Assembly: GCA_947481575.1 (NCBI GenBank)
Contig: CANKGV010000001.1
Span: 62,001 to 126,000, forward strand
From: Alphaproteobacteria bacterium
Lineage (GTDB): Bacteria > Pseudomonadota > Alphaproteobacteria > UBA2966 > CAIVPW01
Length of the DNA: 64,000 bases
Reading direction: 5' to 3'
In this document: piece by piece, positions 57,366-60,780 of the stretch
How positions within the stretch are numbered: position 1 is the stretch's first letter
How the letters are laid out: each line of letters opens with the position of its first letter
The notes under the pieces: model-generated
What the model was told of the DNA's origin: nothing
Seen by the model: the letters and a program-made list of their open reading frames with translations, nothing else
The model's database searches: none
Made by a program: the position numbers and the translations under genes

Positions 57366-57465
57366 CGCGACAGCGCCGAGGCGGGCGCGTTCCGCACCGC
57401 TTGTGACCACCGGTCGCGCGTGCTTATGTTTGCGGCACGATGGCCGCTGTATCCCGATTTCGCCG

Positions 57466-58218
57466 ATGATCGCCCCGCGCCTGCTTGCCGCGCTCGCAAC
57501 GTTGACGGTTGTTGCGTGGGCGGGCGTGGCCGAGGCGCAAACCGCCCGGCGCATCAATGTGTGGGATTTGCAGCTCGGCGCGCCGCTCAGTGCGCAACCG
57601 GCCTGGGAGGAATTCAAGGGCTACGGGTGCGGCACCAACGGCGGCCCGATCATCAAGCGGCTCACCAAGTTTGCGGACTTTGCCTCGTGCACGCCCGACG
57701 CCAACGGGTGGTACGAGGTGTATTTCGAATACGACGACGAACTCGAGTACGTCGCCCGGGCCATGGATAACCCCATGGAGATCGACCGCTGGGCCGGTAC
57801 CACCGACGGCGGCCATCCCGTCATGGTTTCGGCGCTGTTCGATCGCGGCGGAGTTTTGAAGATGATCCGCGTTTTGACCGATCCGCGGGCGGACTTCGTG
57901 GCGCAGGACGCGCGGCTCGTGATCCACGGCCGCGAGACCGCGTACCAATACGGCGCGATCATCGCGCCACGGTTCCGCGTCGATTCGAACAAGGACTGCA
58001 CCACGCTGCCGCTCGCCGAGGGCGAAACTGCGGTGGCCGGCCGGTACATCAAGCTGCGCTGTCAGAAGGTCGATGCCGAGCGCAGCCGCCGGATCGTGTT
58101 GGAGATCAACTATTTCCGGAAGCCCGGCCAACAGGGCCGCGACCCGGGCGTGCCGACCCGGCTGACCATTGGTCAGTTCGAGAGCCTCACGCGCCTTGAG
58201 ATTTTCGCCACCCCATAA
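57466..58218 (+). CDS. exported protein of unknown function
   Basis: A 250-residue protein with signal peptide (LLAALATLTVVAWAGVAEAQ). The mature protein is rich in beta-type sequence with paired cysteines: GYGCGTNGGPIIKRL and ASCTPDANGWYEVYFEYDDE, later DCTTLP and KLRCQKV, so two disulfides are likely in the periplasm. I do not recognise a family. ATG 57466 was chosen because longer in-frame starts add a polar extension before the signal. It precedes the PQQ-like gene by 32 nt, probably in one operon. Confidence 0.68.
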   Translation: MIAPRLLAALATLTVVAWAGVAEAQTARRINVWDLQLGAPLSAQPAWEEFKGYGCGTNGGPIIKRLTKFADFASCTPDANGWYEVYFEYDDELEYVARAMDNPMEIDRWAGTTDGGHPVMVSALFDRGGVLKMIRVLTDPRADFVAQDARLVIHGRETAYQYGAIIAPRFRVDSNKDCTTLPLAEGETAVAGRYIKLRCQKVDAERSRRIVLEINYFRKPGQQGRDPGVPTRLTIGQFESLTRLEIFATP

Positions 58219-58250
58219 CGCTGCCCACGCATTACCGAACGGGATTTCAG

Positions 58251-59993
58251 ATGACTGTGCATTGGACTGCCGCCCCCCGCCGCGTTAGCCCGCTGCTTGT
58301 GCTTGGAACTCTTGCGGCAATGGCGGTGGCGCCTGCGGCACAGGCGGCCGACTCCAAGACCGTGACCCAAGACCGCCTCACCAACAGCCTGAATGAGCCG
58401 CACAACTGGCTGATGCCGAACGGCAACTACATGGGGTGGCGCTATTCCAAGCTCACCGAAATCGACCAGACCAACGTGACTTCGCTGAAGCTTGCGTTCG
58501 CCTACGCGCTCGGTGGATTGCGCGATACCGGCCCGAGTGGCCCGCAGAACGAAGGCCCGCCGCTGGTTGAAGGCGGCATCATGTACGTCGCCGACGGCTG
58601 GGGCTCGCTCTACAAGGTCGACGTATCGTCCGGGCGCAAGGCCATCAAACTATGGACCGTCGATGGCAAGGTCGATCACGAGGGCAACTCGCCGCGCTCG
58701 CGCGGGATCGTGATGCTTGGCGACCACATCTTTGAGAACTTGGCCGATGGCCGCGTGATGGCGCTGGACCGCGCGAGTGGCGAAGTGATCTGGGAGAAGC
58801 AGGTCGGCATCATCACGCCATTCGGCGCCAAGGAGACGTTCACATCGGCGCCGATGGTGTTCGACAACCGGCTGCTGGTGGCGAACGGCGCCGGCGACTC
58901 CGGCACCCGTGGCTGGATCGCCTCGCTCGACGCCACGAATGGACGCGAGCAGTGGCGGTTCTGGACCGTTCCCGCGCCGGGCGAACCTGGTCACGAAACT
59001 TGGAAGGACACCAACGAGGCCTGGCAGACCGGCGGCGGCGGCCTGTGGCAGACCGGCGTCATCGACGTTGCGCAGCGCCTGACGATGTGGGGCGCCGGCA
59101 ACCCGGTGCCGGCGTTCGACCCCGAGCTGCGCCCTGGCGACAACTTGTATTCCGACTCGCTGGTGGCGGTGGACATCGATACCGGCAAACTGAAGTGGTA
59201 CTTCCAGTACGTGCCGAACGACGCGTGGAACCTCGATGAGGGCACCCACCTTATGTACGACGCGCCGGTCAACGGCGTGATGCGGCCGATTGTCGGGCAT
59301 TTCAGCCGCAACGGCATGTACTACCAGCTCGATCGCGTAACCGGCGCGTTCATCAACGGCGGGCCGTACATCAACGACCTGACGTGGACCGCCGGCTTGG
59401 ATCCGCGCAGCGGCAAGCCGATCGAATACGACCCAAACCAAGACGTGCAGCGCTATCGCGTCGGCCAAACCGGAGCGCGCGGCGAGGTCGTGGAGCGCTC
59501 GTGCCCCGTCGGGCACAGCGGCGTTTCGCACCAGCCCCAGGCCTACAACCCTGTGAAGCGCCTGGCCTACGGCGCTGGTGCCGAAGGCTGCCCCAATGCG
59601 GGCGGCGCTGCCCCGGGAGTAGTTGCGGTCTTGGACGCCCAGCGCGGCTATGCCAGCGACCAATACTTCGGTGCGCTCACGGCTGTCGATGTGACGACCG
59701 GCAAGGTTGCCGCGAAGCACATCTTTGACTTCGAGAATCAGGCGGGGGTGTTGGTCACCGCCGGCAACTTGGTGTTCACCGGTCTGCCCGATGGCGCGCT
59801 GGTGGCGCTGGACGATGTGACGCTGAAGGAACTGTGGCGTATCGAACTAGGCACGCCGATGAAGTCGCCGCCGATGACCTACGCGATCGGCACGAAGCAA
59901 TTCCTGGCGGTGGTCACGAGCGGGCGCGACATTCACCCGGTGGCGTACGACCAGCTGGAACTGTCGTCGTACGTGTTCGTGTTCGCGCTGTAG
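58251..59993 (+). CDS. PQQ-dependent dehydrogenase-like beta-propeller protein, atypical active site
   Basis: A 580-residue exported eight-blade propeller (signal around LLVLGTLAAMAVAPAAQA) related to quinoprotein alcohol dehydrogenases: NWLMPNGNYMGWRYSKLTEI, RGWIASLDATNGREQWRFWT, GNPVPAFDPELRPGDNLYSD and KLKWYFQYVPNDAWNLDEG. In alcohol dehydrogenases the last segment normally has a catalytic Asp (WD-x-D/A); here it is Asn327, with Asp329 kept at the position used by lanthanide enzymes. The vicinal Cys-Cys is also missing, replaced by EGNSPRSRGI. No fused cytochrome c. A true dehydrogenase is therefore uncertain. Confidence 0.8.
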   Translation: MTVHWTAAPRRVSPLLVLGTLAAMAVAPAAQAADSKTVTQDRLTNSLNEPHNWLMPNGNYMGWRYSKLTEIDQTNVTSLKLAFAYALGGLRDTGPSGPQNEGPPLVEGGIMYVADGWGSLYKVDVSSGRKAIKLWTVDGKVDHEGNSPRSRGIVMLGDHIFENLADGRVMALDRASGEVIWEKQVGIITPFGAKETFTSAPMVFDNRLLVANGAGDSGTRGWIASLDATNGREQWRFWTVPAPGEPGHETWKDTNEAWQTGGGGLWQTGVIDVAQRLTMWGAGNPVPAFDPELRPGDNLYSDSLVAVDIDTGKLKWYFQYVPNDAWNLDEGTHLMYDAPVNGVMRPIVGHFSRNGMYYQLDRVTGAFINGGPYINDLTWTAGLDPRSGKPIEYDPNQDVQRYRVGQTGARGEVVERSCPVGHSGVSHQPQAYNPVKRLAYGAGAEGCPNAGGAAPGVVAVLDAQRGYASDQYFGALTAVDVTTGKVAAKHIFDFENQAGVLVTAGNLVFTGLPDGALVALDDVTLKELWRIELGTPMKSPPMTYAIGTKQFLAVVTSGRDIHPVAYDQLELSSYVFVFAL

Positions 59994-60000
59994 CGCCGGA

Positions 60001-60780
60001 CTACGGTGTCGCGGCCGCGCGGAGCGCGCCGTCCGGCATCACCGTTTCGGAAAACTTGGTGCCGGTGAGCACCGTACCGAACATGTCGGCCTTCCAGAAG
60101 GTTGCGCGGGTTACGTCCGCATCGGTCAGGTCCGCCTCGCGCAGATCAGCATCCTGAGCGTTGGCGCGGACCAGGCTGGCGCCGGTCAGGTTGGTCCCGG
60201 CCAACTCGGCGCGGCCCAACCCGGCCTGATCGAGCTTGGCGCCGGACATGTCCGCGGCCCGCAGGTGGGCGAAATCCAACCACGTGTTGGTGAGATCGGC
60301 GCCGATGAACTTGGCTTCGGCCATCGCCGTGTTGCGCAGATCGGCATCGCGGATTGACGCGCCGGAAAGATTCGCCCGCGTGAGCCGCGCCGTCGCCATC
60401 CGCACCTTGTCGAGCGTGGCGCCGGTTAGGTTGGTGAGTTCCAATCGCGACGCGTAGAGCAGCGCACTGGTCAGGTTGGCGCCGCTCAGGTCGGCACGGC
60501 TGAGGTCGGCCTTGTTGAGGTTGGCACCGGTGAGATTGGCGCCCTTCAGGTTGGCGCCGTTCAACTTGGCGTCGTGCAAACTCGCGCCGGTCAGGTTCGC
60601 GCCGGCCAGATTCGCCCCGGTCATCACATGACGCTTCAGGTTCGCCCCGTGCAGGTCGCACCCGGGGCACTGCATCGATGTACCGGCGATGAAGTCCTCG
60701 CGGGCGTCCGCCCACGCGGGTCCCGCTGACAGAGCCATTGCCGCGCACAGCGACAAGAACAGAAGGCGAATCGGCAGCAT
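60001..60780 (-). CDS. exported pentapeptide-repeat protein
   Basis: A 259-residue protein: signal peptide (LLFLSLCAAMALSAGPAWAD), a CXXC (MQCPGCDLHGANLKR), then about 35 A(D/N)LXX pentapeptides such as ANLTGASLHDAKLNGANLKG, forming a right-handed quadrilateral beta-helix. The two N-terminal cysteines before the helix are unusual and could bind metal or a thiol partner. Most known pentapeptide proteins with function (Qnr-like gyrase protectors) are cytoplasmic; this one is exported. Role unknown. Confidence 0.88.
   Translation of the reverse strand: MLPIRLLFLSLCAAMALSAGPAWADAREDFIAGTSMQCPGCDLHGANLKRHVMTGANLAGANLTGASLHDAKLNGANLKGANLTGANLNKADLSRADLSGANLTSALLYASRLELTNLTGATLDKVRMATARLTRANLSGASIRDADLRNTAMAEAKFIGADLTNTWLDFAHLRAADMSGAKLDQAGLGRAELAGTNLTGASLVRANAQDADLREADLTDADVTRATFWKADMFGTVLTGTKFSETVMPDGALRAAATP

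Follow-up and report, generated by a model that had tools for sequence, protein, structure and literature searches.

An alphaproteobacterial quinoprotein with asparagine at the catalytic aspartate position, and the clade without vicinal disulfide to which it belongs

The PQQ-dependent dehydrogenases XoxF and PedH and the quinohemoprotein alcohol dehydrogenases share an active-site Asp (D299 in XoxF) known as the general base, a residue regarded as indispensable in PQQ alcohol dehydrogenases. In the lanthanide-type enzymes it opens a D-x-D motif, and a vicinal Cys-Cys ring is a further feature of the type described by TIGR03075 (PQQ-dependent dehydrogenase, methanol/ethanol family). Our literature search found no paper linking a catalytic aspartate and asparagine with lanthanides, nor any on D303E or D466N, and on PQQ quinoprotein pseudoenzymes it found nothing beyond a pseudokinase review. 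Besides its catalysis, a sensory role is reported for PedH in the accessible part of one paper, giving a precedent for a regulatory quinoprotein (PMC5487730).

The window, namely the whole 64,000-nucleotide stretch analysed here from a draft alphaproteobacterial genome (G000, with family relatives G001-G007), contains at 58251..59993 on the + strand the gene of a quinoprotein of the PQQ-dehydrogenase type. It is an open frame of 580 aa, whose match to the PQQ beta-propeller superfamily PF01011 (E 1.6e-52) reached 179.5 bits against a gathering score of 26.7. With TIGR03075 it scored 369.5 bits and with TIGR04528 (acido-empty-quinoprotein group A) 315.5 bits, below the curated cut-offs of 480.05 and 650, respectively; a typical export signal is predicted by eye, and the nearest relatives are ~55% identical. 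An AlphaFold2 model built with 27 sequences (pLDDT 82.8, pTM 0.88) displayed the eight-bladed quinoprotein fold, with 1kv9 as the best VIA match (Z 45.3) and Foldseek in agreement. The ten-residue block with Asn327 had a mean pLDDT of only 66, so no active-site geometry is claimed.

HMMER paired the motif WNLDEG (residues 326-331) with WDYDGV of XoxF 4mae and WDFDGV of PedH 6zcv, and MAFFT agreed, which puts Asn327 (codon AAC, 59229..59231, + strand) at the general-base and metal-ligand Asp position and Asp329 (59235..59237, + strand) at the lanthanide-type second Asp, so that D-x-D has become N-L-D with the second Asp alone kept. The preliminary description had proposed just this, a lost catalytic Asp beside a retained lanthanide-type acid, and had allowed for a misaligned motif; the former is confirmed, and the latter is rejected because two aligners agree and the predicted fold is that expected for the family. 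Among the other metal ligands, Asn284 (59100..59102, + strand) is kept according to both aligners. Asp216 (58896..58898, + strand), which had been missed before, stands at the metal-ligand Glu position as a clade-wide Glu-to-Asp change, seen with HMMER, with MAFFT and in the ligand count. The vicinal disulfide of the CC-type members is likewise absent, as had been noticed, and in the alignments the loop EGNSPRSRGI (residues 144-153, 58680..58709, + strand) replaces it. The protein's only two Cys, Cys418 and Cys447, bound a stretch at 59502..59591 (+ strand) and are both conserved in 58/58 clade rows.

In the largest alignment (124 rows), the catalytic column held Asp in 122 rows and Asn in two, the window protein and L030 13915-16023. 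The latter is a very divergent propeller ORF reading WNND at the catalytic position, with its other ligands missing. For the ligand count, two repeats and six divergent rows were removed to leave 116 rows, four of which are PDB chains; the six, also left out of a 66-row tree by judgement, read PSDD, --DD, HSDD, ASDD, TAND and KTDD, with one or two carboxylates, and do not follow the three-carboxylate rule of the kept rows. Of these kept rows, 113 carried the second, lanthanide-type Asp, and the first Asp accompanied it in the other 112, Asn being found in the window protein alone. Of the four ligand positions, exactly three held a carboxylate in 112/112 other second-Asp rows and two did so in the window protein; column shuffling reached 112 in 0/2000 trials (mean 98.9), a statistic that ignores relatedness. 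Ligands are reshuffled in seven of these 112 (SEDD in 3, GEDD in 1, -EDD in 2 and QDDD in 1), namely L035, L036, L009-L011, L070 and L073, in which the Glu is lost and Asn has turned into Glu, or Gln is combined with Asp, with three carboxylates kept. All seven form one clade (quick tree, SH-aLRT 95), so as few as one event may underlie them.

Trees of 66 and 40 rows both grouped the window protein with DNDD and DQDD rows, in an unnamed clade of the Cys-Cys-less, Asp216 type. Asp at the Glu-ligand position was counted in 67 other rows, every one without Cys-Cys, versus Glu in 38 rows with and 3 rows without Cys-Cys. The Asp-type Cys-Cys-less rows of the 66-row tree fell into two separate groups, one acidobacterial and one containing the window protein, which suggests that Cys-Cys loss and the Glu-to-Asp change arose together more than once; the two are coupled in L016, L017, L020, L021, L023 and L026-L028 as well as in the window clade. 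An ortholog group of the window gene with the alphaproteobacterial L002 and acidobacterial genes was supported at UFBoot 99 / SH-aLRT 100 in the 40-row tree, from which L004 had been dropped as too alike and in which L003 was not included, both grouping with the window in the 66-row tree. L002, L003 and L004 have identical counterparts in G004, G005 and G003, members of the window's family. Of the 193 genomes in the class to which L001's genome belongs, 43 gave a match with an E value no higher than 1e-90. Among the matches listed, Asp327 and the Cys-Cys-less loop occurred together in 30/30 acidobacterial ortholog loci, one of them L001's own gene. A clade-wide Asn at position 327 is rejected, as no other clade row examined has it: Cys-Cys loss and Asp216 are clade-wide, and Asn327 is private to the window protein. 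The new subfamily suggested earlier thus stands for the missing Cys-Cys, which with the Glu-to-Asp change marks a large clade, but not for the Asn.

The gene sits in a recurring gene neighbourhood. The disulfide-rich exported protein previously placed directly upstream is real as a gene, EXP (57403..58218, + strand; likely start ATG 57466, by eye), which ends 32 bases before the quinoprotein gene, but with 4 conserved Cys in an alignment of 11 sequences the term was overstated; the attention drawn to it proved fruitful, since homologs stand beside many clade quinoproteins. It has no name: the window copy gave no Pfam, NCBIfam, PDB-sequence or plasmid match, a Pfam scan of three homologs gave only sub-threshold matches in 2/3, and fold comparison pointed to no convincing counterpart (Foldseek E 0.041 and VIA Z 5.3 at best). 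Viral contigs yielded no relative. Convergent with the quinoprotein gene lies PENTA (60001..60780, - strand), encoding an exported pentapeptide-repeat protein (PF00805, E 1.6e-47). EXP homologs number 9 in G000 and 4, 6, 5, 6, 9, 7 and 1 in G001-G007, respectively, and EXP and PENTA form a single ORF in several modules, both in G000 and in relatives.

The recurring module thus comprises a quinoprotein, EXP, PENTA (often EXP-fused) and usually a monoheme cytochrome c (window 57403-60780; L109-L115; L002-L006; L008-L011). In G000, EXP and PENTA were located within about 3 kb of 8/8 complete wider-clade quinoproteins (window, L109-L115), with L039, a fragment at a contig end, left out of the count. 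Neither was found within 14 kb of the two XoxF-like copies in L116, in the flanks of at most 1.5 kb of the XoxF-like L041-L043 (two at contig ends), or in the flanks of the 30 acidobacterial loci (0/30). A lone EXP copy, 56% identical to that of the window, lies at L107 5534-6331 (G000 contig C8), in a 12-kb stretch in which no quinoprotein was found. A CxxCH ORF resembling the cytochromes of the modules was present in 7/7 other complete G000 modules, three of which had themselves contributed query sequences, and two such ORFs were present in L116; among the acidobacterial loci 22/30 had one (one weak, one upstream) and 8/30 had none, with flanks of 1.5 kb or less. The same search found no cytochrome-like CxxCH ORF in the 64-kb window, so that the window module is short of an expected part, which a cytochrome encoded elsewhere could supply.

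Judged from its sequence, the window protein, which belongs to a little-studied enzyme branch, has probably turned non-catalytic or otherwise altered. Our leading reading, held with slightly less than even confidence, is a quinoprotein with a dead base that may persist as a binding protein, sensor or scaffold. A non-catalytic role is favoured because Asn is no general base, one carboxylate is missing, almost all else is kept and no cytochrome gene is adjacent; the missing pqqBCE matches in G000 described below and the sensory precedent of PedH count on the same side. In such a periplasmic protein the loss of the Asp carboxylate would leave the proton of the alcohol untaken and the metal-PQQ complex less well held, and alcohol oxidation would as a consequence be very slow or absent, while the folded propeller could be retained for a turnover-free job: it might hold PQQ, metal or substrate, act as a sensor, or serve as a scaffold for EXP and the pentapeptide protein. 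Against this reading, Asn327 is known from one sequence in a draft assembly, and the six divergent rows left out of the ligand count, one of them with Asn, have one or two carboxylates. The window protein could also draw on cytochromes encoded in other modules, and 8/30 acidobacterial loci that keep Asp likewise show no cytochrome in their flanks. A somewhat different proposal, which we consider unlikely, is a mirror-image metal site, with the base dropped and the lanthanide-type Asp kept; together with the EXP and pentapeptide partners and no dedicated cytochrome c, this would point to a PQQ/metal-binding sensor or carrier, or to a different reaction.

No better placed is a working dehydrogenase with a rearranged site, in which the Asn327 oxygen would ligate the metal, Asp329 or a water would be the base, and two carboxylates would suit a divalent metal such as Ca. 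The motifs aligned to the active-site segments of solved enzymes are otherwise kept, two carboxylates is also the count of the Ca-type rows ENDT and ENDS, and ligand reshuffling is seen in relatives; yet the arrangement is used by no other kept row, the window is without a cytochrome-like ORF, and the second Asp lies away from the substrate in XoxF structures. In favour of this reading, more than a quarter of the sequences in another propeller family, the AA12 PQQ enzymes, do not conserve the His base, according to the available portion of one report (PMC6881810).

A recently inactivated and drifting gene, for example after losing PQQ synthesis, is less probable again than a rearranged site. 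G000, which is 98.68% complete and carries about 13 quinoprotein copies of full or nearly full length, gave no match over cut-off to PqqC (TIGR02111), PqqB or PqqE, and the module without a cytochrome would fit drift as well. PqqC was over cut-off in 6/7 family genomes (G001-G007), and PqqB in 5/8 genomes, G000 not among them. At the relatives' loci L095-L098, LysR, pqqB, pqqC and pqqE precede arsC, hisD and hisG; on G000 contig C6 (L106 3878-6223), LysR, maf, infA and arsC are consecutive, with no Ns and with pqqBCE absent, an absence that without rooting may be either a loss or a never-gained state. The genomes holding the window's clade (n=17) have PqqC in 8 (G001-G006, G041, G043), versus 9 without it (G000, G007, G081, G321, G399 and the genomes of L001, L007, L008 and L012), although completeness is not given for G399, L001, L007, L008 and L012 and the clade genes of G007 and L012 are fragments; missing pqq genes are therefore no mark of inactivity. 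In the accessible text of one study, PQQ scavenging is widespread, and only a single alphaproteobacterium is reported to have the importer PqqU (PMC12124388). The one TonB-dependent receptor found in G000 (L137, PF00593) matches E. coli PqqU at about 25% identity in its longest BLAST segment. As read from that alignment, it is without the Y99/R304/R365 signature given in the same part of that study (PMC12124388), and PqqU import in G000 is rejected on this evidence, which is weak at such an identity. PQQ may still be available, since other G000 quinoproteins keep the catalytic Asp.

The gene itself speaks for drift in part. Its tip branch of 0.74 is the longest in the ortholog group, but the sister path to L002 is almost as long (0.12 + 0.53), and the frame is intact. 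Of 68 clade-invariant columns (58 clade rows), the window protein breaks 2, D327N and G423S, and the reciprocal test on 56 rows, with the window protein now among them, gave 2/68 for each of L002, L003 and L004; in a smaller test (26 rows) it breaks 3/71 and other rows 0-5, and with orthologs only it breaks 28/186, versus 30-32/190 for L002-L004. General gene decay is thus unsupported, the broken invariant columns being as few as in L002-L004. Rough whole-frame omega values of G000 pairs were 0.16 (L032-L066, the least diverged pair), 0.19 (L034-L056), 0.31 (L033-L062), 0.38 (L036-L009) and 0.50 (L038-L075), compared with 0.10, 0.16, 0.11 and 0.20 for four pairs from other genomes. Four of the five G000 values would accord with drift, but the sequences compared in those four share no more than 59-70% identity, which leaves relaxation in G000 neither demonstrated nor dismissed. 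Paralogs with internal stops, which also favour drift, occur in relatives. One of them, L069 (G003 contig C1:158592-159950), has two internal stop codons and is apparently a decaying quinoprotein.

It is quite improbable that the whole Cys-Cys-less clade is PQQ-independent ('empty quinoproteins'), which would leave the Asp-to-Asn change of little weight. TIGR04528 was the best model, though below its cut-off, for 4/4 scanned rows of the separate acidobacterial group (L016, L017, L020, L026), and the 8/17 clade genomes with PqqC compare with 9/10 among the alphaproteobacterial genomes drawn for CC-type rows. TIGR03075, however, outscores TIGR04528 not only for the window protein but also for the acidobacterial ortholog L001 (407.9 vs 336.3 bits), three ligand carboxylates are held by 112/112 other kept rows, PqqC is after all present in those 8 genomes, and the scavenging cited above is widespread. 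No paper on empty PQQ quinoproteins of Acidobacteria was found in the literature. Least probable, and very unlikely, is a single base error over a true Asp codon: AAC and GAC are one base apart in what is one sequence of a draft genome, but a hit on exactly this codon is unlikely a priori, and the adjacent Leu328 also departs from the Tyr/Phe of 28/28 other clade rows, which argues for a genuine change of the motif.

This natural Asn variant, otherwise almost wholly conserved, offers a direct test of whether PQQ propellers have non-catalytic jobs. Its surroundings matter at least as much, namely a large clade that has no Cys-Cys and an altered metal ligand, and a three-carboxylate count that survives reshuffling, besides the unnamed exported partner EXP and some 13 quinoprotein copies in a genome that yielded no genes for PQQ synthesis.

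Compared with known systems, the ped cluster of Pseudomonas resembles the window by gene adjacency, as the pentapeptide protein PedD is encoded beside the PQQ-dehydrogenase PedE like PENTA here, and in the part of the source available no EXP-like protein was noticed (PMC12997753). The TIGR04528 group is a related propeller on which the separate acidobacterial Cys-Cys-less, Asp-type group scores best, whereas the window protein scores higher on TIGR03075. PedH (6zcv/6zcw) and XoxF (4mae) have the same eight-bladed fold as the window model (Z 45.1 to 6zcw and 43.5 to 4mae; rmsd 2.2-2.3 over 506-507 residues) at 29-31% identity in the structural alignments. The window protein retains their second Asp and Asn ligand, and two Cys of 4mae align with its non-vicinal Cys pair; it departs from both in Asn for the catalytic Asp, Asp for the metal-ligand Glu, and the absence of a vicinal disulfide and of a cytochrome-like ORF. 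Closest are the orthologs L001, L139-L168 and L002-L004, which have a Cys-Cys-less loop of the same kind and Asp216 as the window protein does but, unlike it, carry Asp327 in every case.
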